Shown here piece after piece: positions 32,136 through 56,051 of a DNA stretch of 64,000 nt; the stretch's first letter is position 1, and every line of letters begins with the position of its first letter. The DNA is from Hypomyces perniciosus. Its lineage: Eukaryota; Ascomycota; Sordariomycetes; Hypocreales; Hypocreaceae. The position numbers were made by a program, and so were the translations under genes. The notes under the pieces were generated by a model. The model was not told the origin of the DNA and searched no databases. It saw only the letters and a list, made by a program, of their open reading frames with translations. The stretch spans positions 1,736,001-1,800,000 of the forward strand of contig SPDT01000003.1 of assembly GCA_008477525.1 (NCBI GenBank), written 5' to 3'.

Positions 32136-32207
32136 CTTTTTGATGTTTCTTTTTGTTCGCTGTTGTGAGGTGGTGCTGATATTATGTGAGCTAAGAGCCT
32201 AACCACC

Positions 32208-32846: not shown

Positions 32847-33029
32847 TAGCTAAGCAATTGGGTTTAAAGTTTTTAACTAACTTTAACAAAGAATGTTTTT
32901 CAAGTAATAAAAAGAGTTCATTAATAAAATAACGATATTAATAACTACATAATATAGTAAATTAATAAATTATAGTTAAAATTTTTATATTAAAATTAAT
33001 TTTAATATAATCAATCGTTAATTTACTAT
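32847..33029. other. AT-rich filler
   Basis: RIP-like AT-rich DNA without features between two repeats. Confidence 0.5.
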
Positions 33030-33360
33030 TTGTGGCGGAGCGCGGCACAGCTATGTGGAGCATAGAGAGAGAGTGAATGAAGCTTGATTCTACCTATCCA
33101 AGAGAATATGCCGTAGTGGCCTCGCTATATATACACATAGCTAACACAAAGAAGAAGCGGATTCCTTTGTCCAGCGAAACGTAGCGAACAGGGTCTAGAC
33201 CCCTGGCTCCTACCGACCTGTTGCCCACACGAGGCTGTTGTACCTAGATACAGAGTGGTCGTAAATAGTAATAAAAAAAAATAAAAAAAAGAAGAAGCGG
33301 AATACAGGCGCTTACAGCGCCTGCACAGCCGGACACATCGCTTACGCGATGTTTATGTCA
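33030..33360 (-). repeat. Dispersed repeat, copy B, carrying a nested insert
   Basis: Reverse-complement match to 22133-22312 at both ends, interrupted in the middle by the insert at 33162-33287. Shared blocks include CGCGGCACAGCTATGTGGAG near 33039 and ATCGCTTACGCGAT near 33337. Confidence 0.7.
33162..33287 (+). mobile_element. Short A-tailed retroposon (SINE-like) with 14-bp target duplication
   Basis: The 126-bp body starts TTCCTTTGTCCAGCG and ends in an A-rich tail (TAATAAAAAAAAATAAAA). It is bounded by the direct repeat AAAGAAGAAGCGGA at 33148-33161 and 33288-33301. The sister copy at 22133 lacks the body and has only one target stretch, so the insertion is confirmed by an empty site. 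The body can pair AACAGGGTC with GACCTGTT. No clear tRNA boxes are visible; it may be a novel SINE or a processed small RNA. Confidence 0.7.
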
Positions 33361-33638
33361 GCTCGTATCTGCTATATAAGCAGATATCTTGTCTTACATT
33401 CCCGCACTACGCCAGTCATCAAAATTATTTATATCGTATCATATTAACTCGTATACTAGTCTCCATTGACCGCAGAAGCGAGTTCTGGTTGATCCACGCC
33501 GCTTCGCCGCTCTTATCTTATGTCAGGCTCGGACCAGCTTAAATACTCCTCTCTTCCCTGTTAACTCTTTTCTTCTTTATCGCTTCTTTATTGCTTCTTA
33601 TATTCACTACTCGCTACTGTTCACTAATTCCATTCAGG
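33361..33638. promoter_or_regulatory. Upstream region of the DUF3431 gene
   Basis: No ORF. CTATATAAGC near 33372 is a possible TATA, but it is 260 bp from the ATG. The stretch 33540-33630 is pyrimidine-rich (CTCTTCC, TCTTCTTT), a usual feature of fungal transcription start regions. Confidence 0.4.
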
Positions 33639-34412
33639 ATGAAGACCATAGCGCTAATAGCACTCGCTCTCGCCCAGTCCGCCATGGCTGACATAGGCAT
33701 CGTCGTAGCGCGATACAAGGAGCCCCTTGAGCCTTGGGTGCCTGTCGCCAAGAATACATTTGTCTATGCAAAGGGTGGCATCCCCCAAGCCAAGGACTCG
33801 GTCCACCACGGCATCTTTCGATCCTACATGCCGTTGCCTAACATTGGTCGCGAGGGACACACCTACCTGACCCACATCACTCGCCACTACGACGACCTGC
33901 AAGAGATCATGATCTTCTCACAAGCGGACCCCTTCGATCTGCTCAACCCCATCGTCAACACCACGGAGCAAATGGTCAGAATCGCAGAGAAGGTGCATAA
34001 AGACGAGATCAACCCCTTTAACCCATCCCTCTGGCACGACACGGACGACTGGTCCAAGATCAACTGGACCGATCCCAAAGAGTCTCTCTGGATAACCGCA
34101 AGCCAGCTCAAGTCCCTCGTCTACGCGCCTTACACCCCCGCCGACTTTTGGTCGCTTGTCTTTGGTAAATGCGAGCACCCTCCTGCCATCAGGTCCAACC
34201 ACGGAGGTACCTTTGCGGTGCGCCGCGAGACAATCCGGAGCCAGCCGCTCGAGGTGTATAAGAGGGCGCTGCAGGAGTTTGAAAATGCCAACGTCGTGAA
34301 CCCTGAAATAGGCTTCTTCTGGGAGAGGTTCTGGGCACCGTGCTTTTCAAAAAGGTACTATTTGGTTAATACTCCTGGATATGTCACGGCACCAACCAAG
34401 ACGCGATATTGA
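33639..34412 (+). CDS. DUF3431 secreted protein, C terminus replaced by a repeat
   Basis: One exon, ATG at 33639, 257 residues. The start MKTIALIALALAQSAMA is a signal peptide. The mature part opens DIGIVVARYKEPLEPWVPV and holds HYDDLQEIMIFSQADPFD and the late motif EIGFFWERFWAPCF, all typical of DUF3431, a fungal family of unknown function proposed to resemble glycosyltransferases. The last nine residues (from VTAPTKTRY) and the stop lie inside a dispersed LTR-like repeat starting at 34382, so the original end was lost by insertion. The core domain seems complete, so the protein may still fold. It lies within the 5S-inserted element and may be cargo. Confidence 0.85.
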   Translation: MKTIALIALALAQSAMADIGIVVARYKEPLEPWVPVAKNTFVYAKGGIPQAKDSVHHGIFRSYMPLPNIGREGHTYLTHITRHYDDLQEIMIFSQADPFDLLNPIVNTTEQMVRIAEKVHKDEINPFNPSLWHDTDDWSKINWTDPKESLWITASQLKSLVYAPYTPADFWSLVFGKCEHPPAIRSNHGGTFAVRRETIRSQPLEVYKRALQEFENANVVNPEIGFFWERFWAPCFSKRYYLVNTPGYVTAPTKTRY

Positions 34413-34567
34413 CGCCTTGTCACGTGACCGGAGCTCACGTGACCAGGCCCCAACGCATTCCTAGCTATAGCTTTCCGTAAAGCCTCAGGGCTTTCTCGCT
34501 CTCTACAGTATAACAACAATATTTGCCTTAATTTACCTTTCTATATTATAATAGTTTATACTATCCT
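34382..34567 (+). repeat. LTR-like dispersed repeat, copy A
   Basis: Starts TGTCACGGCACCAACCA and matches 48085-48256 through CTATAGCTTTCCGT and CAGGGCTTTC near the middle. The 3' half is AT-biased compared with the other copy, as after RIP. The TGTCACGG start is LTR-like, but a right end was not found. Confidence 0.6.
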
Positions 34568-34736
34568 TTAATTTAACGTCACCATCGCAAAATATATACT
34601 TAATTAATTATAACTTCCCCTTTATTCCTAAACCTATAATAATACCTTTATAGCCTAGCCTTTATCTTTTAAACTTTATATTTATAGAAAATTAATTATA
34701 AATGAAATAAATGTAAATACTTTAAACTTTACTTTA
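34568..34736. other. AT-rich stretch
   Basis: RIP-like DNA between two repeats, without features. Confidence 0.4.
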
Positions 34737-35566
34737 GAGTAATGCTATTGGAATAGATAAAAATTGCTACTGGAACAGATGGTCTGTGCGCGCACACAGA
34801 AATCGTCCTAGCTTTCAATTCCTCGATCTTCCACAAACAACAACTTAAGTGATACACAATGGGCTGAAAGGAGTGGAAAGGTTATGATGATGGAAGGAAA
34901 GGAAAGGAAAGAGAAGGATACGCTTTTATGCGTATCATTAAGCAGCAATAACAGCAGCAATAACAGCAGCAGCCTTATTATTGCTATATAATAGTTGTAA
35001 CAGCAGCAATAATAAGGGCGGCCACGAGGGCAAAGACGCAGCAGCAGCAGTAAAGCTGCTATACAAGAATTATAACAACAGTCACAGGTGCAGCCGACAG
35101 GTCGGCCCCGGGGCCAACCACCTACACATCAGCTTAACCCTAGCATATAACGGGTCCCCTCACAGTCAGAGATTGAGAGCTCGCAGCCGATATTACAGGG
35201 GCCTAGAACATCCAGTCAACGTTCTAGAGGCTATAGTAGATCGCGGGTTACAAAAACTTCTAGCCGACAAAGCCGTGTCTCTGCTACAGCAGCAGCGGCA
35301 ACAGCAGCAGTATTGTCCCAGATCAAGGAGATTACAGAGATTATACCGGCTATACAGCTAGAAGAATAGTCAGTTTAAGGGAATGTATATAAATAGATAG
35401 AATATATGCTAAAGACCTGTTATTCAAAGCAATTTAATGGTGTTGGAATTAAGTGTTGCGTAAAGGAGTAAGTTATGTGTTGAGGGAAATTGCTGGGAGA
35501 ATTTCGCAGCTGCGCATAGACTATCTGTTCCAGTAGCAATTTTTATCTGTTCCAATAATATTACTC
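34737..35566. mobile_element. Tc1/mariner-like TIR element, about 830 bp
   Basis: TA flanks (34735-34736 and 35567-35568) enclose 55-56 bp inverted ends starting GAGTAAT. Each end contains two direct copies of a 15-bp motif GCTA(C/T)TGGAA(C/T)AGAT about 22 bp apart, an IR/DR layout that in mariner-type transposons binds transposase. The interior is CAG-rich. One frame near 35200-35370 reads a Ser/Arg-rich stretch ending IKEITEIIPAIQLEE, which could be the tail of a lost transposase. No full transposase, so non-autonomous. Confidence 0.75.
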
Positions 35567-35732
35567 TATATATTACACAGGCCATAATCCTTAACGCCTT
35601 AAATTTTTTAAAGTAAACTAAAAAATTTATAAAAGATAAACTATACTTAAATTAAAAGTAATACTAGTTATATAAATAAAAATTACTATTTTTATATAGC
35701 TTGTATATTACCTAAAATCTTTAATAGTAATA

Positions 35733-36140
35733 TGTCACGACCCGACCATGTCGAAGACCAGGTCACGGGGACACAGGAGAATATCGGTTACACCGACCAA
35801 TCATCAAAGAGTGATCACCGCGCTAAGAGTGATCACTCAAACGCTCACTACACCAAGACGTGTGATCACTTACTCGATCACCGCACTATCGCAGTGATCG
35901 CAGCAACGCTCACTGGAACATCAGCGATCACATATAGATTTCCTTTGTATATATACGACTGGCTTGTCACTCATTTAGTATAGTTACTTAGACAGTCGTT
36001 AACAAATTGCATTCACCAGAACCACCTGTTCTACAGAATCGTGACTACATTACCCTGCTCAGTATTTATCCCTGACCTCTCTGTCAATATAAACCCACGA
36101 ACCTCGGTTTATCCCTTAAGAATCAACCCGGATCGTCACA
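35733..36140 (+). mobile_element. Solo LTR with 5-bp target duplication
   Basis: Starts TGTCACGACCCGACC and ends CCGGATCGTCACA; the ends are imperfect inverted repeats. The direct repeat TAATA flanks it (35728-35732, 36141-36145). It is 408 bp. Copies of GTGATCAC recur between 35810 and 35930. It sits in RIP-affected AT-rich DNA but is itself not AT-shifted, so it arrived later. It is the leftover of a gypsy-type element after LTR-LTR recombination. Confidence 0.88.
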
Positions 36141-36145
36141 TAATA

Positions 36146-36508
36146 AAAGTAAAAATAATAATAATATTATAAATAATAATAATTAATAATAATTAATAAT
36201 AATAAAATATAAATAAAAGTAATTAAAATTAAAATAATAATGTTTATTTAAAGTTTTATTTAATTTATAAAAATATAAATTAGTTTATATTTTACGTAAA
36301 AATTTATTTAATTTAACTTTAGAAAATACCTATTAAATAAATTCTTTTAATATATTTAATGGGAGTAATTAATAGGTTGTAGGTTAAGAGATATATAGGG
36401 TTACCTGCTAGTTTATGTCTAAATATAGGAGGGGTATAGTTTAGTTATAGTGCTTTAGTATCAAAGGCTAGACAAAACGGTGGCGGAGATACAGATAAGG
36501 CTTTCCTG
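36146..36508. other. AT-rich stretch
   Basis: Dominated by AATAATAA-like runs, no coding frame, RIP-like. Confidence 0.5.
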
Positions 36509-36509
36509 C

Positions 36510-36666
36510 TTTGCATATACCGCAAGGATCACAAATATTGGTTTAATACAAGACCTATATCTCGAATTTGTGATTAGAGTATAATACAGATATGTATTTC
36601 TATATAAAATCGGGATATGGGTCTTGTACTGAACTAACGTTTGTGATCCTTGCGGCATGTAGAAAA
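36510..36666. repeat. Large hairpin (foldback element)
   Basis: Arms of about 60 bp (36510-36568 and 36606-36666) share CCGCAAGGATCACAAA and ACAAGACC(T/C)ATATC(T/C)CGA in inverted order around a 37-bp spacer. The left arm differs mainly by C-to-T and G-to-A. It lies just inside the end of the 5S-inserted element. It could be a foldback MITE or a structural element of that end. Confidence 0.75.
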
Positions 36667-36712
36667 CGGCGACCAGCCAGGCAGACAACAGAGGGGAGGT
36701 TCAATGACTAGG

Positions 36713-36752
36713 GTAGGTGGGTGACCACCAGCGAACACCGGCTGTTGTATGT
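36713..36752 (+). pseudogene. 5S rRNA 3' fragment
   Basis: GGTGGGTGACCACC to GTTGTATGT matches the last 40 nt of the intact 5S gene and is followed by a T-rich terminator. The sequence to its left belongs to the element end, not to 5S. The junction falls on GGTGGG, which occurs both in 5S and in the element end (ATGGTGGG), so a small deletion by short homology probably removed 5S nt 40-80. Confidence 0.8.
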
Positions 36753-36829
36753 CTTTGTTTTTTGCTTTTTTGGTGTTGTATACTTCGTATCTGGGTGCGG
36801 ATATAATGTAACTTGAGAGAGTAACTGGC

Positions 36830-36948
36830 ACATACGACCATATCTATTGGAATATACGGGATCCCGTCCGCTCTCCCATAGTCAAGCCAATAAGAGGCAG
36901 ATTAGTAGTCAGGTGGGTGACCACTGGCGAACACCGGCTGTTGTATGT
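36830..36948 (+). rRNA. 5S ribosomal RNA, second intact copy
   Basis: Identical to 32017-32135 over 119 nt. TATA-like ATATAATG at 36802-36809; GTTTTT follows the 3' end. It is the third gene of the former tandem. Confidence 0.95.
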
Positions 36949-37218
36949 TTTTGATTCTTTTTTTGCTGTTCCTTTCACGCAGCGTGATTAGTGTTTAAGT
37001 CCCCTTCATGCGAAAGAGGAGAAACCCACAAGTACTCCGTAAATCCGAGTCTTATCCCTATCACACCAAAGTAGCATTGTCATGGACCTGAGCATTAAAC
37101 GGCTACCACGAATAAATAAAAGTAGAATTTTAGAGACATTTTGTATTAGCTCGCATGTAGTGATATATAGACTATCCTATCAGTCCACCTTTGAGAGACC
37201 TTTTTAGTAGTCACGCTT

Positions 37219-40090: not shown

Positions 40091-40168
40091 AGATACAACA
40101 GCCGGTGTTCACTGGTAGTCACCCACCCAACTAATACTAATCTGTCTCTCATTGGGAGAGCGAACGGA
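40091..40168 (-). pseudogene. 5S rRNA 3' part, third fragment
   Basis: On the minus strand it runs from CCGTTCGCTCTCCC (5S nt about 35) to the 3' end, with a 9-10 nt internal deletion and several changes. A T-rich tail lies beyond the 3' end. Similarity stops at the same 5S site as in the other split copies. Confidence 0.8.
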
Positions 40169-40330
40169 GTTTCTTGTTCACTTTGTGAATATGGCCCAAG
40201 GTTCTGCCGCAGACCACCGTTCAGTATATAAGGCTCAGGACCGCCTCTATCTCTGCCCTATCTACATTTCCACTTTCCGGTCTAGTATTTCGCTTTCTAG
40301 GTGCCGGATACTCTGAAAAACGTATACGCC
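40169..40330 (+). mobile_element. End fragment of the 5S-targeting element
   Basis: CCCAAGGTTCTGCCGCAGAC near 40193 and TCTACATTTCCACT near 40260 line up with CCCGAGGTTTTGCCGGCCCG and TCTACATCTCCGCT of the element at 42856. A TATA-like TATATAAGG lies near 40219. No recombinase ORF follows, so only the terminal promoter-proximal part remains. Confidence 0.6.
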
Positions 40331-41079
40331 TTCGTTAACCCTTTGCCCTTTTTATTCGGAAGCTTATGGAATGTAGGTTCTGGGAAGATGCACTCAATGT
40401 AGCAATATGGAAGCGACTAGATGGATTTAGGTAAACGATAGTAAACTAACTAACTAAATTATATATAATCTAATAGCTAGAAGCTATAATAAAATAAATA
40501 ATGTGTGGACCATAGGGATCATTATGCCAGACCGATTCCCTTGTTGAAGATCCGTCTTTTCGCAAAACGCCAATCCAACACCACGTTCCATACGAATCCT
40601 AGAACATCTACAAGGATAATGTGACAAACCGTCGTACTGTCACGTCAATTGGCAAAATAATAGGCTAATAATCGCATTTGTAGCAATTATCATGACGGTA
40701 TCAACTATATATAACGGAAACGTGCTCGGAACGTGACAGACAACTTCGACTCCACGAATGTCACATAAGTCACCAAGTCACCTAAACTTCTTGTTCAATA
40801 GTACCAGGGACACTTGTCCGCTCGGCTAAAGCCCTAAACCTCTCCGAACATAATTCTACTTCCCCCGCCCCGACGTCACAGAGATGCATCTGTACAGGAG
40901 ATATCGAGTTTTAAATTTTATCCCTCAGACCGCTGTCATCAATCTTTCTCTAGCTATCACAAACCAGTTCTATCAGATGACAGGGATTCGAATGACTCCT
41001 CCTTATATACATGACGAACAGACCTTCCCGATCACCTCAGGCAAGGTGTTGGAAGGAATTCGTGTGATTTTTGGGTTAC
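40331..41079. other. Intergenic
   Basis: Short AT-rich run at 40440-40500. No gene recognised. Confidence 0.4.
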
Positions 41080-41494
41080 TTAGAAGATGAGGAAGTTGTT
41101 CGCGCCTCCATCCGGTCCCTCAACGCAACCATCGCCGATGCGGACCAACTTGCAGACCCTGTTCTGATCATCATGGCATGCGAAAGCACCGTCATACGAC
41201 TCGTATCGGCCCTCCTTGGTGACCTTCAAGTACTTGCCCGGTGGGCTGACAGTATGCTTGTCCTATATATCAAAAAGTAAACCAGTCAGCAGTTGATCTA
41301 GAAAATTGATCTCCTAGAATGGAAAAAAGGCTCACGTAAAAGGAGGTTCCAGTATAAGAGCTAGTGAGCGACTTCTCAGAGCAGTCTTTAGAGCTGTAGA
41401 AGTTCACCCTCCAGGTTCCTCGGGCAGGATTGGGAGCGGCGGAGGCGAGCCCAGTAAGGGCAGCACCGGCAAGAATAACGGATTTCCAGAGCAT
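41080..41494 (-). CDS. Small secreted cysteine-containing protein
   Basis: ATG at 41494. Exons 41336-41494 and 41080-41262 with a 73-bp intron (GTGAGC...TATATAG, phase 0) encode 113 residues. MLWKSVILAGAALTGLASA is a clear signal peptide. The mature protein of about 94 residues has four Cys (KDCSEK, FACHD, RVCKL, DGCVE), enough for two disulfides, and is rich in Gly, Lys and Tyr. Size, secretion and cysteines fit the small secreted protein class seen as candidate effectors, but no family is recognised. It lies between two 5S-element ends, an accessory location. Confidence 0.75.
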
Positions 41495-42768
41495 TTTGAA
41501 ATGAGGTAAGAGTAGTTCAAAGGTGTGTTTAAGGATGTAGGTTGACTTGAGAGAATCAATGGTTTCGTATGTTGATTGAAACGCTCTTCACTCTTGTTTA
41601 TATAGATACTGTTCTTTTAAACTTTCTTTTTTAGGTAATAACAATCGGGGCGTACAGGATTCCAAACGGGACATATGTGATTCCGACGGCGAAGGATAAG
41701 TCCGATCAGGATATTGACAAACATCCATGGCGATTACTTCTCCGTAAGAATTTCATGCCAACCTGCCTACATTGGAAGCCCGGGCGCTCAGAGAGCACTG
41801 GCGTCGGATAGTTAAGTGCCCCGATGAAACCGCAGGTCTATGTATAGATGGCCACTAGCCCATGTAGTCCATACATGCGTGTCCATACTGACCCCAGTGA
41901 TTGCTGACGATCTGTAGCCCCTGTGTAGAAGCCAATTTGCCCAAATTGCGCAAATTTATGACTTGTACATGAAATGATAGTCCCAAGCCCTTCTAGAGAA
42001 ACTCAGGTTTAGGTTATGGCGCGGCCAATTCTGAGGCCACCGTCACGACGAGGAGTTCATTGCCACTCGCCAAACAATACTTGTAGGATCTACAGCAGCT
42101 TTGTGCTAGACATCAGATGGTAGGGCTGCTAGGGTGTTTTGTTACGTGCTTCCTTGCTCCGGTCTATACCCCTGATAAAAAAGCCAAGGCTTATTACTCA
42201 AGGTAAACCAGGCGTACCTAGTTAACGTCGGCTGACAGGTTTAAGCTCGATCAGGCAGCTCGATCGGAGAACCTGCAGCATTGTCCACCTTTTCGGCGTT
42301 ACAGATCTTATTAATTTGTATAATTATTTAAGCTTTTCCAACCGATCCAATAAGCTTATATATAACTAGACCATAAAGGTTAATGCAGTATAAGACCCAT
42401 ATCGCTGTTTTGATTGGCTGATAAAGCAGAAGTTGCAGTACTTTTAAATACTAGGAAGACACTACGAAAATGAAGTCCTAGATATACCTAAATGATTGGA
42501 AAGAAGTGCAATGAAAGTGGTAGAAATGTTGTTGAAAGTGTAACGACGAGACATTAATTTAACTAGGATGAGGGGCTATACGGATTGAATGACAGGCCAA
42601 TTAGTTATAAGTTAAAGGTGCAAAAATTGGAAAACACTGAACTCAAGAGAAAAGCTTGTCGTGATCCTGTATATCCTAATGAGTATGGTCAAATGTGCTG
42701 GTTGCTGTCTCAGCTCGCCGGATATGCACCCACAACCTAGGAGCAAAATAGCAAAAAAAGACAAAAGA
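41495..42768. other. Intergenic
   Basis: Promoter of the secreted protein near 41500-41600; the rest holds no recognisable gene. The region 42290-42420 is AT-rich. Confidence 0.4.
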
Positions 42769-42855
42769 ACATACAACAGCCGGTGTTCACCAGTGGTCAC
42801 CCACCTGACTACTAATCTGCCTCTTATTGGCTTGACTATGGGAGAGCGGACGGGG
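42769..42855 (-). pseudogene. 5S rRNA 3' part directly abutting the DUF3435 element
   Basis: On the minus strand CCCCGTCCGCTCTCCC to GTTGTATGT is nearly identical to the intact 5S gene from nt 34-36 to the end, followed by TTCTTTTG and a T-run. Similarity stops at the CCGTC site, where the element starts. Confidence 0.88.
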
Positions 42856-43282
42856 AACCCACCATAGTCATCGAACTTCCCCGAGGTTTTGCCGGCCCGG
42901 CCCTCCGTTGCGTGCTTGGCCCGGCTGCCGTTTCCACGGAGAGGGTAGGCCCCGTCTACATCTCCGCTACCGTTTCGTCCGGCCTCCGATACCGAAGCGC
43001 CGTGGACAAACCGCACCCCTCCTTCAACCCCCGAGAGGTAGGTTAATGCCGGCCGGGATCAAGGTCGGACGATGGGTACCGCACGCCCCTCCCATCTTCT
43101 TATTTTAATGAGACGAGAAGCGCGCCCCTTCGTGTACTGGTACGCTTTTGCAATGGCTTGCGGCGCTCCCCACGGCCTTCGCTTTCTATGGATGATGGTG
43201 CTATGGAGCGGGCGAGTGCTGGCTATTCCCCCCTGTCCCTTTTCTGTCATGATTCTCCGTGCCTTTCCGCGGCTACTGCATG

Positions 43283-43289
43283 TATATAA
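43283..43289 (+). promoter_or_regulatory. TATA box of the DUF3435 gene
   Basis: TATATAAG about 105 bp before the ATG at 43390, followed by pyrimidine-rich sequence. The related end at 40169 keeps a TATATAAGG. Confidence 0.6.
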
Positions 43290-43389
43290 GTCTGCCTCGT
43301 GCTTCGTCCTTGCCCACCCTCTTTCTGATGTGCGTAAACTTCTTCCTTCTCTACCTTCGTTTCGGCTAATCATCATTTAAACCACCATC

Positions 43390-46234
43390 ATGGCCATCCC
43401 TGTGGCCTTGACTCGTTCCAGATAGCATAATTTCCCCTCAAGGACCTCTTCCCTTCGAACGACCTCGCCAACGGGCTTTTAATGCAGAGATTGCTTTGGC
43501 TACCCTTAAGCAATATCAGGCGAACCCACTTGATAAAGATTCATATATAGACCCGGACACACAAAAGCGTCGCGACAGGGTATGGGAGAATTGGCGATGG
43601 TGTGATAATGCTTCCCCTTACCTAACTTCTGGCCGCTCTCCAGCTGGTGCTAAGGCAATCGTCTAGCTTCGCCGAGTCTATTAATATTGATCCCGAAGGT
43701 GTCTGGATTGACCTTCGTGTCGGGTTAGAGGATGTCCAATCGATATTCCAAACATTTTTAAGGTTGTATGTCGAAAACTCAATCACGAAACGGCCATGCT
43801 TGGGGCCGGAGGAGTACGAAGAAGTTCGGACCATTCAAAGCGCCTGCTCAGTTGAAGACACATGGACTCTTCTTGTCAACGAAGCCGACAGTAGGGTAAT
43901 GAAAGCGAAGCGAAGGGAAGATCGAGCCAATGCGTCATTCTGGACACTTAATTTTTCATCCCGCAATGTTGGTCATGGTCGTAGTCCAGCCTATGAGATA
44001 GCTCGGGTGAGTTCCTCTCTCCTCCCATACTTGGCGCCTTGTTGCTGACAGGTCGGGGTGAGTGCAGTGGATACCGCATTTGGCTATTGAACTTGGTCTT
44101 TCCCTCGAGCAGAGTTTCGAAAAGTCTGAGATGACAGCAGAAGATGTCATCTTCTGCCTCGATACAGTCTGGACAAGGGCACAAGATATACCGTGCAGAC
44201 CCAGCAAACGGCTTGCATTCCATTGTGCCACCCTTTTAGGCGGGATTGGCGGCTGGAGGCCAGGCAGTCTAGTAAACATCAGGTATGAGGATATTGAGCT
44301 TGCTTGGGTCAGAGACCAGGAAGTGCCGTCCAGGACTTGGCCAGTGGTATTTATTACTATTCACCACGTCAAGCAAAGAAAGAATCGCATTCAGAGAGAT
44401 CAGCGCTCCAGGTAGTGTAACCTACGACACGCCTTCTTACTCAAATCTCAGCTTGACTAACAACACTGTAACGAGACAGGTTGCGCGTTCCTATGACACT
44501 TGTGCCACACAAATTGCTTTGTCTCGTCACGCTTTTCACGATCAGGGCTATTGCCGATAATGCTTTCAAAGCTGGCTATGATTCATGCGACCAGGTCCTG
44601 CGTCCCGGGCCGCTCGAGAAAGGCGTGAATTACGTACGACTTGAGTGGAGTGACGAGGTGCTGAAAGAGAAAAAGAAGATTATTCCAATATCGTACAATC
44701 AGTTTTTGGGCGTTTGGAATCGCGTACATTTTGTCGCGGGGTCTCGCGAAAGGAAGCGGCCATATTCACTGAGAGTTGGTGCAGGGGGACGGCTTGATGG
44801 TAGGTCGACACTGATGGTGGTGGCCTTCATGTTCTTTATTTGACTGACGCCTTGTCCTTGTTCTTCACAGGAAGCTTAACCTCAGCCGTACGAAACTACA
44901 TTCTTGCAAACTCAACGGAAGTCTTCGAAATATCTTATCAGCCGGTTCAGACACGAAATAAGCTGCCAGAGATTGCATTCGGCAAGCTTGGTAAACAAGA
45001 TGACGCCCTATGGTCCGTCATATCCAACGCCTTCTTGCGACGGGACCCATATGCCCCTCTCTACCTCACACAGGAAGAGAAAGACAAATTCAATGAACGA
45101 AATGATATTAAGGCCTTGAGACAGGAGTTGACAATCATACGGAATAAATATGGGCTGAAAAGTAAGGAGGAAGGGAAGATCTGGGGACGAATTCAGCACA
45201 TATACGACTGCCTGGAGAACCTGACGCTGCAGGAGAAACGTCGAACTTACTTCGCGGAGGTTGATAGATTACGGGCACAAGGGAAACCAACTACGCATTT
45301 ATATGATTCTTTGGCCACCAACCCGCGACGAGTGCTTTTCCAGGCCAGCAACACCGCCGCCGAGAAGATTTCTTCACTGCTCACGGATCGAATGCCTCCT
45401 ACAACGCTTCCAGACAAGATTGTGGCATATATAAGAGGGAAAACCCCGGAGGGCCATGAGGATGCTGACCCTGTGACCGGGGATCTCAAGCTCGAGACTT
45501 CTGAGAAGCCACGGTGCCTCTTTGGCTGTGGTGGGTTTTTTAGCAAGTCTTCACTCACCAGACATGTCCAGAAGGTTCATGATTTTAAGCACCCTTTCTT
45601 CTGCCCAGAATGTAGAAGTCTCGGGTGGGGTGAGTGCATGATCGAGGCCAACCCATGTGCTTGGAGCAGTCATGTCGAGCGACTGCATGGCAAGATACAT
45701 GCACCAAACCTTCAACCCAAGACGATGAAAACGGCGTATTGCCCATTATGCCGGGGCTTCTTCACAGCAAGAGGATTCACACAGCATCTCAACAAAAGAC
45801 ATTCCAGGAAATTCTCTCATCCATTTCAATGTCCGGAATGCCCCGGACAAGAGCCGACATTAATCGATGGTCAGGATTTCTGGGTGGCGCACTTGAGAGA
45901 TGCCCATGGTGGTGGGGAAGTCCCAGGAGCGAGGCTTGTCAGCGACGAGAGTCGGCAAAACGAGCTAGCTGTAGACCCAGAGGGTATGCTTACAGAGAAA
46001 AAAGGGGATTATCCGGACAGAATCAAACACCTGAATGTCACAAAGAAAAGGAAAAGAGCTACGACTGACTTAGAGGCGTGGCATTCAGTTAATGCTCACC
46101 CAGGAAAGAAAATGCGCTTGCTCTCCGATCAATCGATGGAAGAGAGTGATTATGAGGAGGATTGGGATTGGAAGGCTGAGGGATCCCCTGATCCTCATGC
46201 CGACGAGGAGTTTTGGGTAGAAGGTTGGGATTGA
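43390..46234 (+). CDS. DUF3435 tyrosine recombinase (captain-type) with C2H2 fingers
   Basis: Five exons: 43390-43579, 43644-44006, 44068-44411, 44480-44799, 44871-46234. All introns are GT-AG and four joins keep frame. The recombinase core includes GGWRPGSLVNIRYEDIEL, then YSLRVGAGGRLDG|SLTSAVRNYI and STEVFEISYQP, which I read as the R...(Y/H)xxR...Y boxes of tyrosine recombinases; SYQP would hold the nucleophile. Next is the family segment FLRRDPYAPLYLTQEEKDKF. The C terminus has two to three Cys/His fingers (CGGFFSKSSLTRHVQKVH; CPLCRGFFTARGFTQHLNKRH) and a basic then acidic tail. In exon 1 the ATG frame stops after 11 codons; a one-base shift near 43421 restores a long frame (PPQGPLPFERPRQ...), so the start is uncertain or damaged. 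About 860 residues. Confidence 0.8.
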
Positions 46235-47390
46235 TATGTATCTCATAACGCAGAGGATGGCTATCTGTTAGCCAGCTACTCCGTGAACCCTTAAGCATGC
46301 AAATGAAGACAAATATTCTTGTAATGGTCCCTGTTTGAACAATATACTTAACAAAGAGAGCGTTCAGTTCAAGTCAGCCGCTACAAATTCCTGCCGCCCT
46401 CCACCGCCTTCCAACTCAGACAAGCCTCCCACCTTCCCCAAACTTTCGACCTCCCGCTTCTTAAAGTATTTCTATAAGAACGCCCACCGTTTCCCCTCAA
46501 CCTATATCCCACTCTCCTCTGCCTCTCTCTCCGTCTCCTCGCCCTTCTGTCCGCCGTGTTCCACCTGAAAGCTCTCTCCTTATCTAACTGCGCCCCCCTC
46601 GCACAACCGCCCTTCCCCTCCCTACTGCATATACAGGTTAGGATCATGATCCCGGTATTCCACCCGTCGGCTTCGCATACCACCACACCCTTGCCCGCCT
46701 ATTTCTCTAGCCTGTCGCTTGTCTCCGCCAAAGGGCTTTCCTACCTTTCTCTTGACGCCTTAGAGGCGGAAGAACTATCATTCGCTGAACTTGATCGAGC
46801 CCCGACTTATCTTCGCCATCGACACTCTGGCGACGGGACGCCACAGCCACGACTCTCCTAGTTCCTTAAATCTCGCCAGCGACTTGGCGAGGGCTATGCC
46901 CAGGATGCTTCAATGATTCTATGACGATGACAGCTCATCTGGGATTAGGTGACGTGCTTAAGTCTGCCCCGCCCTAGCAGGGTTTGCCCATACGGACACA
47001 TGCCGAGACTCAGCCAGCTGGTCCTTTTGCTTCGCAGAGGTTTCATCGGCCTCCCCTTCTGTGCATGCGGCGAGACGACTAACGGAACCTTGGGTTCGTT
47101 TGGGTGTTGGCGGGCTGAACTCTCACAGTCGGTACAATGCCATTAGACCGCCATTCGACAAGAGTACCACCGGTGTTGGCCCGCGGTCTGCGACCATATC
47201 TACAGCGAATGCAATCCTGTTATGTAGTGATTCACTGACTTGGGTGATATTCGTTTATCCCCCTCAGCTGTATGCCCGCAGCCCCACGAGAGCGGGAAAA
47301 TCGTCTCCCAAGCTTCCCAGCAAGCTGTGTCAAATCGTACGATTTTCGGATACACAGCTTCCCGCGCCACGGCTCATGTCTGAACCCCTG
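46235..47390. other. GC-rich stretch, no confident gene
   Basis: Pyrimidine-rich 46390-46620 resembles a promoter. An ATG at 46645 opens 72 codons (MIPVFHPSASHTTTPLPAYF...) of unknown type, which could be a first exon. Nothing else is recognisable. Confidence 0.4.
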
Positions 47391-47923
47391 AAGATTGGTT
47401 GCCCCAAGACGATGTTGCAGAGTCAGGTGGTCTGGTAATCGTGCCTGGATTTGCGGTTAGTCCAGATCCTGTTGGGAAAGGGCGCAAGTTCCCGGCTCGG
47501 CTGCGGTTTGCGATGCAACTCGACTCGTAGGGAAGGGAAGAAACAGGATTCGCGGAGGACGCAAGTGAAGGCGTATGGCGAGACGCAAGATGCAAGGGTA
47601 TATGAAATGGAAAAAGTGCAGGCGTATTCGCCGGCCGTAGAGGCCTGCTTCTTTACCGCTCACAACTCAAGATAGGCGGGGGTCACGCATTCAGGAGGCC
47701 CACAACGTTTTACAGGGAGCGGAACTCTTCAGCTCGATTGCCGCGAGCCCCAGCATCAGACAGTATCTGAACCGATTGCGTCCGCGAGCAGCAGCGAGGA
47801 ACCTTGCGACGCAGGAGCCAAAGGAGGAGGAAGAATACCCGCTGCTCAATGCCGTGTCTCAAAATCGAGTTTCGACGAGCAGTAGTCAGGAATATAAGTT
47901 CATGCGCTTAGGCGAGACATGAC
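47391..47923 (+). pseudogene. Decayed coding remnant
   Basis: One frame reads EDWLPQDDVAESGGLVIPGF up to a TAG at 47527-47529. A second open part from about 47714 reads ELFSSIAASPSIRQYLNRLR and ends RLGET at 47923. GC content is high and codon use gene-like, but there is no start and the frames do not join. Family unknown. Confidence 0.4.
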
Positions 47924-47989
47924 GAGAATCGAATGGATCCATTGAATTTAAGGTCATATGGGCATCAACCTGGGTGAGTGTCGAGAACC

Positions 47990-48084
47990 TCGGGGGAAGC
48001 GGACTTTTGAAGAGGCTGAGGAACTGGTGGTGAATGAATTTGGGCAAGCCACGTGGGAAAGGGAGATGAATAGATCTGGCTATC
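47990..48084 (+). pseudogene. Coding fragment cut by a repeat
   Basis: PRGKRTFEEAEELVVNEFGQ then ATWEREMNRSGYL is open up to the point where the LTR-like repeat at 48085 brings a TGA. Helical, charged; family unknown. Confidence 0.35.
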
Positions 48085-48256
48085 TGTGACGGTACCAACC
48101 ATGACACGAAGTTAGCGCCTGGTCACGTGCCCACGCGCCAGCGCGTGACCCGTAGCTATAGCTTTCCGTCGAGCCCCAGGGCTTTCTTGCTCCTCACGGC
48201 ACAACAACGTTATCTGCCCCGACCTGCCCTTCCGTGCCGTGACACTATCCCGACAT
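48085..48256 (+). repeat. LTR-like dispersed repeat, copy B
   Basis: Starts TGTGACGGTACCAACCA and aligns with 34382-34567 through TAGCTATAGCTTTCCGT and CAGGGCTTTCT. This copy keeps C and G where copy A has T and A, so it escaped RIP. As with copy A, its left edge cuts an open reading frame. Confidence 0.6.
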
Positions 48257-48587
48257 GGATACCAAGACTGAGTACTCCGTACGGAGTGATTATCTAAATA
48301 TGGAGTATTAAGGTAACCATATCATTCAAGTTATGTCTCCGTCTGCGTTGATAGAATCGATTACTAGCTTCTGTATTTATTAAAGGATAGACCATTGTTG
48401 TCGAATCAATTCGATTAATTTTTATTTGTATGAATCCGCTTTGCTCGCGGCTGGAAGTGTGCAAGACGTTCATATGCGACCTGCCATGAAGCTCATAATT
48501 GATATCTCGTGTGCACTCTCGGTATCCAAGTCTTATGGTCATGAGCAATGAAATGCCAATATGGGATGAGCTACTGGTCGGCCAACC
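48257..48587. other. Non-coding
   Basis: Contains the palindrome TACTCCGTACGGAGT near 48275, two head-to-head copies of the recurring octamer. No gene. Confidence 0.5.
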
Positions 48588-49096
48588 TGAGAGCTACATT
48601 AGTATACCAGTATCCTCACCTGTTTCCAAGTGTCATCTCCCCCATCGTGTCTAGGCGGTTACCAGAACTCTCCACTTACCAATGATAAAATTACCCGTAA
48701 CTGCGCATCCTTGCACGTGTGGTTACTAGTACTTCATGTCTTTCTCCTCGGTGGTTACCAGTACCCACCACTCACTAAGAACGGAATTGCTGGTAACCGG
48801 GCATTGGGTATGTGTGGGTTACTAGTACTCCATAGTCTTTCTCCTGGGCGGTTACCAGTAGCTTATGAATACCAGTAACTGCGTTCGTGTGGGTTACCAG
48901 CACCCCCTGGCTACCAGCAACCTATAGCAGGAGGTTACTGGTATTTACTGTCTGGGATTTGCCAGTAACCGCTTAGGCCAACCTGCACAGTTACTGGTAC
49001 CTCAGTAGCCCGTGTTTGCGGGTTACTGGTGACTCAACAATTCGGTCTGGCAGGTTTCTGGTACCTCACTCCCAGCTACTTGGTAGTTACTGGTGC
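48588..49096. repeat. Array of about 17 GGTTACYRGTA motifs
   Basis: In about 500 bp the motif GGTTAC(T/C)(A/G)GTA or its complement recurs in both orientations, for example GGTTACTAGTAC at 48721 and 48818, GGTTACCAGTA at 48752 and 48850, and GGTTACTGGT at 48933 and 49021. The core TTACYRGTAA is a palindrome. Part of the array is also a tandem of about 95-bp units (near 48625, 48718, 48812). The stretch is non-coding and ends about 240 bp before the kinase gene. Confidence 0.8.
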
Positions 49097-49333
49097 TTCA
49101 GATAGCCGCCACGGGGCTCCTTCTGTTTAAAAATGGTGGGGTCATGGGCTAGTGATTGCCAGCAGTGCTCAGCGTGGTTGGCTTGATTTGTTCCATTTTT
49201 CCAACCCGTTAAAACGCGCTGACTCATGCAAGCGCTCAACGCATGCGTCTTACAACGCTAACCCGGCCACCAAAGGCGCGTGTGCCCCTTTCCATCACCG
49301 AATACAACATGATCATCGACAGCCTTCTTCGCC

Positions 49334-51721
49334 ATGACGGATCAAACCAGATCGAAGCTCATTGAGGATAACCCTATTGGAAATGGACTCGATACATTCC
49401 GCGCCTCGTTCAATTCGGTTTGCGAAGGTAGAAATATCTCCTATACCCCAGGCACGCTTGCCCAGCTTGGCGACAAAGGTAAGTCGGACAAGCAACGTTA
49501 GCAGACCCTTCTGATTGTTGCAGACCTTCAACATCTTTCCCTCAATCTTTTGGTTGCTCTACAAAACCTCCCAGCTGCGAGTTTAATACCTTCCAGAACA
49601 GGTCATAGTACTCTGAAAAGCGATCTACTGAGACTTCTTTCTGCTGTTACGTCTGATAATTTCGACTTTGACCGTATCAAACCTCTCCTCAAGGCAGCCT
49701 TTGCCGACAAGCCTCAAGATACACTGATCTGGGATCTTGTGTCTATCGCCGTCGTCGAGTCCACCCCACCTCCCCGACCGATTGCCTCTTCCCTCCAGCA
49801 GACGCCATGGTGTCACAATACGAGCAGCTTCGCGAACTCGTCCGAGTACAGGCGGGATGTTGACAGGGTCCTTAAGGAGGAGCTTGGTCCCCTCTATGTT
49901 GGGCTCCCTGGTTTTCGTGAGGCGTTCTTTGGAGGCATTGCAGATCTCGACACCACGTCAGAGGCCATTTTCCAACGGTGCAAGGACGGCAAGGATCCAC
50001 TTTTTTGTGAAGGGTGGAAGGGGTGGCCTAAAGATGCAAAGCAGGACGATGTCTTGAGCTGGTTTGCGGATGTCATCGCGAAGATAGAAGCACTCGCAGA
50101 GGGCCACAACCCACCCCAAACATGTCGCCGACCACTGGCACAGCCAAATAAGCCAATACAGGGATCCACGGGAGAGCGCAAGATGGACGTCGGTTTTGTG
50201 AGCGACCCTCACGCTGGGAAAGACTCTCAATGTCACTGGTCGCAGATCCTCATTCCTGGTGAGCTAAAGAGTAATCCTTCAGCCGACACAGCCTCGAAAG
50301 CATGGCTTGATCTTGGGAGATACGCGCGGGAAGTGCTCGCTGCTCAAGACACTCGTCGTTTCGTGGTGGGCTTCACCTTATGTGGGTCTCTGATGAGGAT
50401 ATGGGAGTTTGATCGGCTGGGGGGGATTGCATCAGAACAGTTCGACATCAACAAAGATGGGCTGCAGTTTGTATCGACCATTCTCGGATTTCTTTGGATG
50501 AGCGAGGAGGGGCTTGGATTCGACCCCACCATTATCACATTTGGTGATGAGCGGTACATCGAGATTGAAAGAAACGGCCATACAGAGCGTCTCATCATCG
50601 ATAGAGTGATGAGTCGCGCACGCTGCATTGCCGGCCGGGCGACAACATGCTGGAAAGCCCATTATGAGAAAGATCCGAGCACGCAGCTCGTTATCAAAGA
50701 CTCATGGCAATGCACGGAGCGAGTTGAGGAAGGCGAGCTGCTCCGTGAGGCGACCGAGAAAGGAGTAATCAATGTGGCGCGATATTATCATCACGAGACT
50801 GTCCATGTTGGCGCTGCTGAGGATGATATTGCAAAGAATGTTCGCAAGGGGCTGGAACTCTCAAAAGCTACGAATTATCGGCTGGGTCGCTCAAGGCTGA
50901 CTCCAAGTACAAGCGCAGTTGGTATGCCCCGCCAGGGTCGCAGCAGCAGCACTGGCGTGAAGCGGCCGTCCAGTGAAAGAGGAGTAGCTCTGCCGCCCAG
51001 CAAGCGCTCCTGTTCAGCATCCCGAGCAAAACCCAGCATTGGTGCACTGCTGAATCGGGTACATCGGCGTGTTGTTCTTTGTGACTACGGGAAGCCAATC
51101 TACAAAGCCAGCTCCCGTGTAGCTCTGCTTGCCGCGCTGGAGGGCTGCATTAACGGGCACGAGTCCTTATACAAGGCTGGCAGTCTCCACAGGGACATCT
51201 CCATTAACAATCTCTTGATTAATGAAGACGAAGAGGACAATTCTTATTCGGCTTTCTTGATCGACCTTGATCTCGCTGTTAGAGTGCAACGGGAGCGCAC
51301 CTCAGGAGCAAAGGGAAAGACGGGCACGAGAGCTTTCATGGCCATCGGCGCCCTATTGGGTGAGCAACATTCTTTCATGCATGATCTTGAGTCATTCTTC
51401 TGGGTACTGTTCTGGATATGTATTCACTACAACGGCCCGGGTAAAGATATTGGTCCAACAGAGTTCGAGAGCTGGAATTATGAAGATGACCAGAAACTTG
51501 CCCGTTCGAAGCTTGGTACTGTAGGTGACGAAAGCATGTTTCTCGATACGGTGGGAGAACACTTTTCGGCTTTCTATCAACCATTGATTCCATGCGTCAA
51601 TAGGTTGCGGAGGAAAGTCTTTCCAAATGGTGAGAGGTGGAAGAAAGAAAGTCTAGACTTGTATCTCGAGATGGTGGAGGTATTACGAGCAGCACGGGAG
51701 ACACAGGAATCAGGCAACTGA
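49334..51721 (+). CDS. FunK1-type fungal protein kinase
   Basis: Exons 49334-49478 and 49524-51721 with a 45-bp intron (GTAAGT...TTGCAG, phase 1) encode 780 residues; start MTDQTRSKLIEDNPIG. The large N-terminal half contains WSQILIPGELKSNP, a conserved FunK1 segment. The catalytic loop is SLHRDISINNLLIN (about residue 575), with HRD present. The magnesium loop is FLIDLDLAV, that is DLD in place of DFG, usual for FunK1. GKTGTRAFMAIGALL and HSFMHDLESFFWVLFWIC follow as in the family. FunK1 kinases are expanded in filamentous fungi and are common on accessory regions; targets are unknown. A low-complexity Ser/Arg linker lies near 50930-51040. Confidence 0.92.
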
Positions 51722-52981
51722 CACCGATAAGTAGCTAGTCTAAGCTCCGTCAGGAAAACCCTAGGTATAAAATATACATGAATCGTCTCGTACAAAGAGT
51801 CAGCATTGCTTTCGCAGGAAGCTCCAGCGCCTCAGTTAGCCATCTCTATTGTGTTGCCTCTTTACTGTAGGGATTTATGTCTATGGAATTATTGCCAAGA
51901 ATAAACCTAATAATTTCCAGTCTATGTAGATAATAGCGGCCGACATGGGAGTCATTTACATTACCCAATACGCTCACTGGATATGATATATTACGCCCTG
52001 GTACACCCTGTTCCCTGAATATTGCACATTCTGGTACTTTTAGCGTGCTTAGCGGAATTTACCTCCATCTTAATTATCAAGTACTCAGCCTTTTCTGGTC
52101 ATATTATGGATTAATTCGAGCGATCTTATTGGATGGAATCTCCACTTTTAAGTGTACACCGGCACGACACCGAGTGGCACGATAGTCTAAATGTCAGATC
52201 ATAGCGAGGCGAACGGCATCTTCCACACAGGATCGTGAATTAATATTGGCCTGAGTTCTATCTACTGTTAATTGAGCCGTCGACAGCTATTTTATGCAAA
52301 GAAGCACCAGTATCGTGATCTCGCACGTGAGATAATACAGTCTTGCCCATTTATCCGCCGAGGATAGTCCAGATCCACCCGGCTAAATGCGACACTAAAT
52401 AAAGCAGAGCTAGCCGAAATCGCGTAAATTAAGCAAGTCTGGGAGAAGCATGTAGCCCGACTGAAAGACGCGAGTAGCTAACTGTTTGCAGGACCAAAAT
52501 GGCAGAAATCAATTCGCAACCTGAAGGTACCGGTGCCTGATCTTTTCGGCTACAAACCAGACATTAATTCACCCCGCTCATCAACGACAGTCCCCATTCC
52601 CACGACGTCACATGCAATCAACCTCAGCATACCTCGAAAGCGAGATCATAGTATTAATCACAGATCAACAGCTTTACAGCACATAGATAACTTGGAATGA
52701 TTCAATTAATACTCTTCTGCTGATCCCAAGTTGAGTGGGAAAGGCTGTTGTTTAAATACATAATAAATTGGCGTTTAGCCATTCTGGATAAATAGAATAG
52801 GATAAATAAAACAGCATGAATATCAGTTACGGATAAACATCTGGATGAATGGTTGCGGACTGGGGTTGTGTGCCGAATCCGGCCTTGAAGCCATTCCTGA
52901 CGTTGACACATAGCTCGTCAAATTAGTCTCCATTGTGCGCAAAGAGAAGAGAAACAAAGTAGATGAAGATTAGAGATGACG
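51722..52981. other. Intergenic
   Basis: No gene, repeat or RNA recognised in 1.2 kb between two genes facing each other. Confidence 0.5.
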
Positions 52982-54378
52982 CTAACCCTGTAAGCCAAAT
53001 CTTGTCCCAGTTATGAGCCATCTCTCCCAAGTTTTCAGTCGCCGCAGCCTACCCTTATACTGGTTGATCTCCCTCAGCCAGCAATCAACGCTGAAATGCA
53101 AAGTTCTCCAAGTGTTGAGCTCGATAAGTTTGTGCTGACAAGCTTGAGCTAAACGCATAAGATGATCAAGTGCCCTATATTAACTCATGAGCATATAGGT
53201 TGTCGGAAATGCGTGCAAACTTACTGATCCGCAAAGCATAACGTAGTAAGCTTCGGGGAGGCAGTGATAGTGCGCACAAACTCCACTGAAGCGTCCGCTT
53301 CTAGCTTGAAAGCCTCGCATCGTTCCTCGGCTGAAGCAGCTTCGTTTCCACCGAAATCACGAAGGAAGAGCGCCTTCATATTACATAGGTGAGCTTTAAA
53401 ATAACGATTGGCACAGCCATTGCTAGTTTGGACTAACATGTCCAAGTCGTTACGGCGTACTTTTAACTCTGGAAGTGAGTTGCTGCTGAGGTTTCCGCAA
53501 AGTACAGCGACACTGCGCGCAAGTTGGACCTTCCGATAAAAATATGGTGATTCAAGTAGGTTCTGATCTAGCATTAATGGATGGTTTAAAATCGGCAAAA
53601 CGGAGGAGAGGAACATCCAAGGTTGGATCTCACTAAATGATGTTTAGCGAAGACCTATTATTGTTTCCTAGGGTTGTGACTCACAGAATGAGGAAGACGG
53701 CTGTCCAAACCGTCAGAAAGTTGTCACGGTCAGTCATGTCCACCTTTTTTTCTTGTCTAAAATCCCAAAGATTAGCAATTTTCATAGGCACAGCATCGCG
53801 CGGCAAGCTTACATCATCTGTTGCATATCTAGGCAGATGCGGTACATGTAACTATTTCGACGACCGTCTTCCAAAGATAAGTATACAAACAAAAGAACTG
53901 CGAGTACAAGAACTCGGATATCTCTCATCTCCATAGCGGGTTGCTGAGTCCGCATCTCGACTTTCAACAAAAGATCATCAGTCCACTCGGCGCACTGCAG
54001 CGGCTTGTTCGATATAATAGCGCCCAATCTGAGGATGAGGGAAAGCTCCAATTGCTCGCCCGGCTGCAAAGTACTGGACTCGAACGACTGCATTGCGTCC
54101 ACCGTAGTCGGTGTCAGTAGAGGATATGCTACCAAAAAACTTTGTTTGAAGCATAAGATCCAAAGATTTAGCTCTCCTTCTACCCCCTGCGGGAGGGACA
54201 ATGCATGCCTCTGATCTTGATTGAGTGAAAACTTATTGGCCTTCAACGATGCTATTCCGGTCATTTTTTCGTTCGGTAGACGAGGCAAAAGTAATAGCGG
54301 GGGTTGGAGGCAGTTTAAGAGTAAAATGAGAATTAAGGAGACTGATGCTGTATAGTATCTGGATATGATGTTTGGCAT
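52982..54378 (-). CDS. Hypothetical four-exon protein
   Basis: ATG at 54378. Exons 53813-54378, 53685-53756, 53225-53632 and 52982-53174 are separated by introns of 56, 52 and 50 bp with good donors (GTAAGC, GTGAGT, GTAAGT) and stay in frame to give 412 residues. The start (ISRYYTASVSLILILLLNCL) is hydrophobic and could be a signal anchor, or translation may begin at the Met of MTGIASLKANKF. The helix-rich remainder ends WLREINQYKGRLRRLKTWER. It resembles the middle and C-terminal region of fungal transcription regulators in texture, but no zinc cluster is present and I do not recognise the family. Confidence 0.65.
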
Positions 54379-54882
54379 GCTTATGATTCCAAGTCTACGA
54401 ATGGAAGCTGCTATTTAAGGATGTCGCACTGACCACTCGACTGGAAAAAATGAAGTGCGCACTCCGACAGAGTGCTAAGTGGTTATGCGTTCTATCCTGC
54501 GACAGGGGATATTGCTTCCTTCCTCAAACACAGGGGCCATCCCGGTTAAGGGGTTTGTATTCCTAGACAAGGGGGAAGTGATGCATATCCATTCAGCCGC
54601 CAATCCACCCAAAGACCAGTTGCTATGCAGTGAATGAAAATTGTCATGCAAGTGGCACCGGACTACGATGAGTCAGGCGGACTGGCTGTCTTGGATGTTT
54701 CCCGGTCGATCCCTAGACCGTGATATGGCTTGGATGGTTGTTATGCATCCATTGTGCCATTGAGAATATATATTAATATCCCTAATTGCCCGAGAATGCT
54801 GGTAAAGTGAGTTTTGATATTTAATCTGTATATTCTGTTGAAGCCCACACCACCAGGACGGCGACGTTTGGTGTAACCTAGC
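54379..54882. other. Region between divergent genes
   Basis: Shared upstream region of the hypothetical gene (minus) and the methyltransferase (plus). No other feature. Confidence 0.5.
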
Positions 54883-55981
54883 ATGTCTGACCAAGAATTC
54901 CAGGATGAAGGCTTTGATGATGACTCTGCATCAGATACTTCTATCGACGAAGAATTAATAACGACGTTGTACCGGAATAACAGGAAATATCGGCGCTTTC
55001 ACTTCTACTCAGACGATGCAGATGTAGATGGGTTTGACCGTTGGTCTGTGAACTTGGGCTCCTAACCTTATTGTGCGGTAGCTGACTGCAACAGGCAACC
55101 GAGCGACGACAAAAATGAAAACTCGGAAAGTTTAATGTGAGTTTATACGTTATTGCCTTATAGAACCTGTCTAAACAGCAATTTAGTTCGGAAGCATGGG
55201 TCGCTGAAGATCGTCAGCTATTCTATGCGCCAATAGCCAAATTCAGACATGTTCTTGATATTGGATCCGGCCAGTATCACTGGGCAAGGTACCTGACACT
55301 ATTCATAATAATAGAGTTAGCTAACGAACTGTAGCGATTTCGGAAACCGTTTTCCAGCTGCCATAATAACTGCAACAGATGTCATGATTCCTGGCCAACC
55401 TTTGACAGCTGTAAACGTTAGGGCAGTCTTAGACGATGCAGAGAAGTTTCCATGGACTTACAAGAACGTGGACTTTATACACATCCGACAGTTATATGGA
55501 ATCAAGGATTGGCAGCGTGTGGTGGATGAGGCATGGCGCTGCTTGGCACCTGGTGGCTACCTTGAACATGCCGAGTTCAGATTCCAGCCAGGTACAAAGC
55601 ATAAAAAATGGCTTGAATTCGAAAAGGACCTTAAAGATGCCGAGTTGAAGTCAGGGAGATCACTGCTAGCCAACAATATGGCTTGCTTTATGACTGAAGC
55701 CGGATTCGCGGATATTCAGATGAAAGAGTACCAGCTGTTCACATCTGACGAAGACAAAGACAGCCTTGGTGATATAGATATCCATGGCCTTATAGCAAGC
55801 CCGTTGTCTTTCATTGGACGAAGTATGGAAGACATTCTACAGCAAGCCATAGGCATGACGCGGGAGTTACAAGACGGTTCAATACCGATCATTGTGTATG
55901 TGCTCTATATGGCGTATCCTTTCCCTGCTAACTTTCAGCAGTACTCGAGTCTGGGGAATGAAACCTCTGGATGCAAATTGA
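54883..55981 (+). CDS. LaeA-like SAM-dependent methyltransferase
   Basis: Exons 54883-55043, 55095-55136, 55187-55288, 55335-55895 and 55939-55981 (introns 51, 50, 46 and 43 bp) give 302 residues. Motif I is HVLDIGSGQYHWASDFGNRF, followed by ATDV at the end of strand 2, FIHIRQLYGIKDW and LAPGGYLEHAEF (motif of the post-strand-4 region). The last intron uses GTATGT with branch GCTAAC and gives the family-like ending VWGMKPLDAN; without it the ORF runs into unrelated residues. Members act on secondary metabolites or, as LaeA, on regulation. The N terminus is acidic (DEGFDDDSASDTSIDEEL), as in this group. Confidence 0.82.
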
Positions 55982-56051
55982 ACTTCCAAAACACTCTTCT
56001 TCTTTCTCCTTCTTTCTACTTCTTCCTCAATACAATATTGAATAATATTAC

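Follow-up and report, generated by a model that had tools for sequence, protein, structure and literature searches.

The window analysed here is the whole stretch of 64,000 nucleotides from Hypomyces perniciosus (C8:1736001-1800000), which was compared with the 44.0-Mb genome of 23 contigs, written C4, C8 and so on. At window positions 42769-46234 an earlier note, made from the letters alone, had described a Starship-like element with a DUF3435 recombinase, its captain, inserted in a 5S rRNA gene. The 5S half and the captain are indeed covered by this interval, whereas the element itself continues past the window. We conclude, with a probability of roughly 0.93, that the element is a Starship (a "ship" below) inserted in a 5S gene. 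The captain end is called the near end and the opposite terminus the far end, and positions without a contig name are those of the window.

42769-42854, minus strand: 5S rRNA 3' part (nt 119-34) flanking the near end, 85/86 identical to intact 5S
42833-42841, no strand: 9-bp inverted repeat with the direct repeat at its centre, outer arm TGACTATGG, lying in the 5S half
42849-42854, minus strand: 6-bp direct repeat CCCGTC (5S sense, nt 34-39), from comparison of the near and far junctions; other copy at C8:1830470-1830475
42855-64000, plus strand: in-window part of the Starship element, whose far end was found and read at C8:1830469, outside the window
42862-42870, no strand: arm CCATAGTCA of that inverted repeat, on the element side
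43390-43579, plus strand: captain exon 1, from the first ATG at 43390
43644-44006, plus strand: captain exon 2
44068-44411, plus strand: captain exon 3 (PF11917), with the Arg box GGWRPGS at 44248 and the Lys box HHVKQR at 44362
44480-44799, plus strand: captain exon 4, with PYSLRVGAGG, the second Arg box, at 44760
44871-46234, plus strand: captain exon 5 (PF11917), with SYQP and the presumed nucleophile Tyr at 44933 (S417-Y418 invariant), and C-terminal zinc fingers
45515-45907, plus strand: four C2H2-type zinc-finger units (45515-45580, 45602-45688, 45740-45802 and 45830-45907), from sequence and profile

The 5S half was compared with the intact copy at 32017-32136, one of two intact 5S genes that Rfam places in the window, the other being at 36830-36949. 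Genome-wide, Rfam gives at least 45 5S places, at least 43 of them above the cut-off, both counts being lower bounds since scoring was limited to the best candidates. Alignment to intact 5S shows that the sharp end placed at 42855 in the earlier note is correct to within one base. The break is not a matter of chance, because 11 of 14 near-end loci aligned from the genome leave the 5S sequence at the same nt 34 and continue into the same element sequence; the remaining three consist of a truncated 5S half, a 5S half followed by other sequence, and a near end without 5S. Two near-end junctions, C22:1130068-1130187 and C16:4138787-4138903, score in Rfam as weak full-length 5S (35.7 and 33.4 bits, against a cut-off of 38), the first 33 nt of the 5S-like match coming from the ship. 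A hybrid RNA polymerase III transcript from these two junctions is conceivable.

The first gene of the element is a DUF3435 tyrosine recombinase on the plus strand, pointing inward. Its ATG lies 535 bp from the element edge, close to the 530 bp given earlier. PF11917 (DUF3435) matches the stretches 44062-44415 (31.7 bits) and 44804-46234 (26.6 bits) above the Pfam cut-off of 25.8; the other two stretches scanned gave no match. Among the candidates listed, relatives of 830 and 821 aa, 72% and 69% identical to the captain, align with it along its full length (100%). The list is headed by proteins of Trichoderma harzianum (72%), another Trichoderma (69%) and T. virens (72%, covering 72% of the query); Hirsutella (52%) and other fungi follow, with at least 27 proteins in all. 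The family assignment stands on both the Pfam matches and full-length alignment. The catalytic set of R, K, (H/Y)xxR and Tyr nucleophile is present as R238, K276, Y384-R387 and Y418, invariant across 13 aligned sequences; their catalytic roles are presumed from the motifs of the family. The predicted fold of the 72%-identical relative is Cre-like. The ATG-led frame of the window captain is interrupted shortly after its start, whereas a copy on C22 is an open captain, open from its ATG and with GT-AG introns at the same places. Other DUF3435 genes, on C3, C5, C7, C8, C12 and C16, score far higher against PF11917, and for some of them (C8:4181477, C7:1335049) a contig end is between a few and some tens of kb away.

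The C-terminal C2H2 fingers claimed for the captain were also recovered, as four units. Their Pfam support is below the cut-off (zf-Di19, 20.2 bits vs 27.5), and a profile of 27 relatives, positions 608-750, matches the solved DNA-binding C2H2 proteins Aart (3.6e-06) and CTCF (2.4e-04). Such fingers, which according to the earlier note might read the target, are common to relatives at 34-75% identity. TFIIIA, which reads the 5S control region, is absent among the matches listed for the captain profile (60 of 79 solved structures), an absence that carries no evidential weight.

Far end and insertion point across the genome

An inverted 5S 5' half (nt 1-39) had been predicted beyond position 64000, and it is present at C8:1830470-1830508, sharing its strand with the near half. 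Conserved far-end sequence joins it at 5S nt 39, and the far end of the window ship, at C8:1830325-1830508 on the minus strand, has no other end between it and the near end among those listed. CCCGTC belongs to the near half (nt 34-120) as well as to the far half (nt 1-39) and is the direct repeat, present at both ends of the element. The element is 51,615 bp long, of which 21,146 bp are inside the window.

The same insertion point recurs throughout the genome. A 25-base pattern from the 5S 5' end, allowing up to 3 mismatches, has 49 genome matches and none in a reversed control. Twenty-nine of these fall inside Rfam 5S places and 20 are orphans. In 18 of the orphans, one of which has a 5S part altered in length by 1 nt, nt 39 of the 5S sequence is followed by AAGCTCTTTTCTTGAG or a near variant; the two exceptions are ambiguous (C16:2131507) and different (C8:3151002). 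A search with the far-end sequence gave 47 genome matches, 40 of them reaching past the 5S part. Thirty-four far ends were tabulated, and in 32 of them, C16:2131507 included, the element starts exactly after 39 letters of 5S, a count that is circular for those rows that were found by far-end similarity; the orphan count is independent of that similarity. The same far end occupies two different 5S genes within the genome.

Order and orientation, the sole basis for joining near ends to far ends, suggest six pairs, with spans of 49.9-96.4 kb. The longest (96.4 kb, on C4) is uncertain, with two further far ends beyond it (C4:3641029 and C4:3620660) and a near end mutated by repeat-induced point mutation (RIP) where its far end is not. 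The near end at C16:4138874 has no nameable partner.

At the near junction TGACTATGG and CCATAGTCA each lie 7 nt from the direct repeat and match at 9 of 9 positions. When the first 30 bases of the element were shuffled 200,000 times, in a test picked after the match was noticed, 9/9 at the same offset occurred in a fraction of 0.000185 and at least 8/9 in 0.0029. The other printed near ends have 6 to 9 of 9 arm matches by reading, two of them shifted by 1-2 nt, and no arm match was seen at the far end by eye, no program being used. The arms give a hint that the captain may bind paired sites as Cre does. A single-strand DNA hairpin at the same junction did not stand out from shuffled sequence (z 0.21). 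Again by eye and with no program, no terminal inverted repeats were seen between the near and far ends; such repeats occur in 18 of 20 A. fumigatus ships (PMC12153272) and are not universal.

A mosaic captain gene and the types of 5S

45575-45599, no strand: mosaic breakpoint, C4-like to the left and C22-like to the right
45599-57396, plus strand: captain 3' end and cargo common to the C22 element

The captain was compared closely with copies on C4 and C22. Over 449 informative sites, the best split falls at 45575-45599, with the left part C4-like at 295/302 sites and the right part C22-like at 139/147; none of 2000 permutations reached it. Finger 1 ends at 45580 and finger 2 starts at 45602, which puts the switch between these two fingers. 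In 250-bp bins, identity to C22 is 79-93% up to 45.5 kb and 96-100% beyond, whereas differences from C4 that are not RIP-type amount to 0.4-2.0% up to 45.5 kb and 3-12% beyond. The C4 copy is RIP-mutated, and nearly all of the 12.6% by which the left part of the window captain differs from it is RIP-type. Identity to C22 is 99.0% over 45599-47600 (21 of 2002 sites differ) and 97% over 52900-57396, compared with 94% over 42955-52976 as a whole. Collinear high identity stops near 57.4 kb and is followed by 73% at 57.9-58.8 kb.

The far end sides with C4, because identity to the C4:3648847 end is 99.4% over the terminal 161 columns compared and 100% over the 254 that follow, whereas C22 gives 88.7% and 64.9%, and the ship therefore has more than one switch. 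Most of the 3 kb that was read close to the far end matches C4:3649656-3652569 at 98%. The 5S halves adjoining the C8 and C4 far ends are 84.6% alike. As a fact of sequence, the mosaic nature of the captain gene is well supported. The window copy is very probably a recombinant in which the near end, the recombinase domain and finger 1 are C4-like and the other fingers and the next 12 kb are C22-like.

The printed 5S genes belong mainly to types A, A' and B, which often stand next to each other in small tandem arrays at a spacing of about 190 bp, and their stem strands differ, by eye, in ways that look paired. The window ship has a near half of type A and a far half of type B, and the C4 near half is A'. 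By reading, the types agree in four of seven pairs (C4, C16:3277583, C22:3254601 and C22:3372108) and disagree in three (window, C22:1130100 and C8:1563611); a possible eighth pair, C8:3151157/C8:3194514, was excluded since its far 5S half is altered in length. In the simplest history, held tentatively and at somewhat below even odds, a tandem array would have carried two ships in adjacent 5S genes, and these may have recombined inside their captain genes, deleting the DNA between them. Such a fusion would also explain the surviving 5S halves of two different types. If one ship sat in a B gene and the other in an A gene, deletion between them would require B to come before A in the 5S sense; several arrays have that arrangement, and C16:4308359 has the opposite one.

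The mosaic could instead have arisen by gene conversion, either of a near end by C4-like sequence or of a C4-like ship by C22-like sequence, which we consider possible though less likely than not. Conversion from a C4-like element would copy the near end and 2.7 kb of the captain, perhaps with the 5S half. The C4-like far end fits a C4-like backbone with a C22-like middle equally well, and the near 5S half could have been converted too. However, a tract from the left would need its start on the element edge or beyond it and its end in the gap between two fingers, and the near 5S half is of type A where that of C4 is A'. It is improbable that the window copy is an unrecombined parent and that C4 and C22 each recombined with unseen third elements. 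Close comparison was confined to these three copies, which leaves room for that history, but the matches to C4 and C22 change within the same 24 bp, so that two independent events would have to coincide. No further copy matching the window at high identity on both sides of 45.58 kb was found among the matches listed, the best others being at 88% and 86%. An assembly misjoin between repeats, at the captain junction or within the 51.6-kb span, is very improbable. The family is repetitive and the evidence is the assembled sequence, but with the left part 12.6% off C4 and the right part differing from C22 at 21 of 2002 sites, reads of these two copies were not simply joined.

A literature search for chimeric captains found no paper, and captain exchange, there from another captain family, is offered as a possibility in PMC12134995. 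The mosaic gene provides sequence evidence for recombination of captain genes, and the role of the fingers becomes testable because nature has made a finger swap. A wider idea, which we hold to be rather unlikely, is that tandem 5S arrays act as a Starship workshop, in which ships of one family would enter neighbouring 5S genes and recombine inside their captains, giving hybrid captains with exchanged fingers and ships whose two ends lie in different 5S genes. Exchange of fingers would then be the way in which targeting evolves, provided that it is the 5S control region that they read.

Insertion into 5S genes and known systems

The Starship reading stands on both junctions, the direct repeat, the DUF3435 captain, the Cre-like predicted fold of its relative and the insertion point fixed across the genome. 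We infer the enzymatic route. A captain at one end would have joined an element of the 50-kb class to the 5S gene by a Cre-like crossover within or beside the 6 bp CCCGTC (5S nt 34-39), after which 5S nt 1-39 would lie beyond the far end and nt 34-120 beyond the captain end. That a small Crypton-like element or a solo captain lies by accident beside a decayed 5S gene, with no giant element, is scarcely credible: DUF3435 genes occur more often alone than as captains (PMC12134995) and this genome has other DUF3435 genes, yet a matching far end and direct repeat lie 51.6 kb away, the C22 copy carries collinear cargo over more than 14 kb and many copies share the fixed 5S break.

Starships inserted in 5S genes are already published, and the window element adds to a known kind. 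The earlier note's statement that at least one described Starship targets 5S rDNA holds for the navis Osiris of Aspergillus fumigatus, in the Enterprise family, whose predicted target is 5S rDNA (PMC12153272). Like the window element, Osiris sits in 5S genes, which it is predicted to fragment, and the mean lengths of 38-138 kb given there bracket 51.6 kb. Several ships gather where 5S genes cluster, and the window stretch recalls the 5S-rich Starship region of A. fumigatus. In contrast, the host here belongs to the Hypocreales and the direct repeat is 6 bp, where PMC12153272 ties 5S targeting to repeats of more than 6 bp; the likeness is judged on target, length and clustering. Voyager of Macrophomina phaseolina also has a DUF3435 captain, and its 12-mer target AGAATACAGGGC, as quoted in PMC10128009, resembles by eye 5S nt 20-31 here, directly beside the cut. 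Unlike Voyager, the direct repeat here is nt 34-39, and no exact Voyager motif was seen in the 5S types by eye, no search having been made. A literature search joining DUF3435 and 5S rRNA found no paper.

Sequence exchange between Starships is known from cargo swapping, in which a gene cluster is common to ships with distant captains (PMC11623301), whereas the switch described here lies inside the captain gene, between finger units, in ships of one family. The captain resembles Cre and lambda-type tyrosine recombinases in the R-K-YxxR-Y set and in the fold predicted for its relative, but differs in an identity of about 10% and in the extra C-terminal zinc-finger region. These data add a Hypocreales fungus with a Starship family bound to a single base of the 5S gene, and the 34 tabulated far ends of one genome are enough copies to fix the site, the two termini and the direct repeat with no need to compare strains.

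Neighbouring elements and cargo

32208-36753, plus strand: third 5S gene, holding a degenerate element of 4.47 kb (about 32247-36714)
40093-40167, minus strand: damaged 5S 3' half that flanks a second small element opposite its far end
42619-42696, minus strand: that second small element (about 40168-42657) in a neighbouring 5S gene, with its far end at 42619-42657 and 5S nt 1-37 at 42660-42696
49502-51718, plus strand: FunK1-type fungal protein kinase (PF17667, 4.7e-145; 87% to Trichoderma ceciliae)
55321-56199, plus strand: methyltransferase-like open reading frame (PF08241, 23 bits, cut-off 21.2)

Several 5S sites of the window stretch have been hit. The 5S remnant of the second small element is 72 bp from the ship's own 5S half, and its near end at 40168 differs from that of the family. 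The degenerate element is made up of 5S nt 3-39, a far end, a near-end remnant and 5S nt 82-120; it lies between the two intact 5S genes and carries a DUF3431 open reading frame at 33543-34409.

Within the ship, the companion genes DUF3723, FRE, PLP and NLR were not found in the 10 that were scanned of 15 stop-to-stop open reading frames of at least 120 aa at 46.2-64 kb, a scan that covered the in-window part and left 26.7 kb of the element unread. The 73% match to C22 at 57.9-58.8 kb sits in a cargo cluster with relatives also on C4, C8, C9 and C12; paralogous clusters 67-74% identical to parts of 56.5-62.5 kb lie at C4:713-718k, C8:2693-2698k, C12:56-61k and C9:1202-1208k. Elsewhere in the window, 7001-12000 is very AT-rich (11-21% GC per kb, compared with 51% at 12-13 kb) and has perhaps been RIP-mutated, and an NLR-like coding stretch with NACHT/NPHP3 and ankyrin repeats runs across three overlapping frames at 12005-15860.
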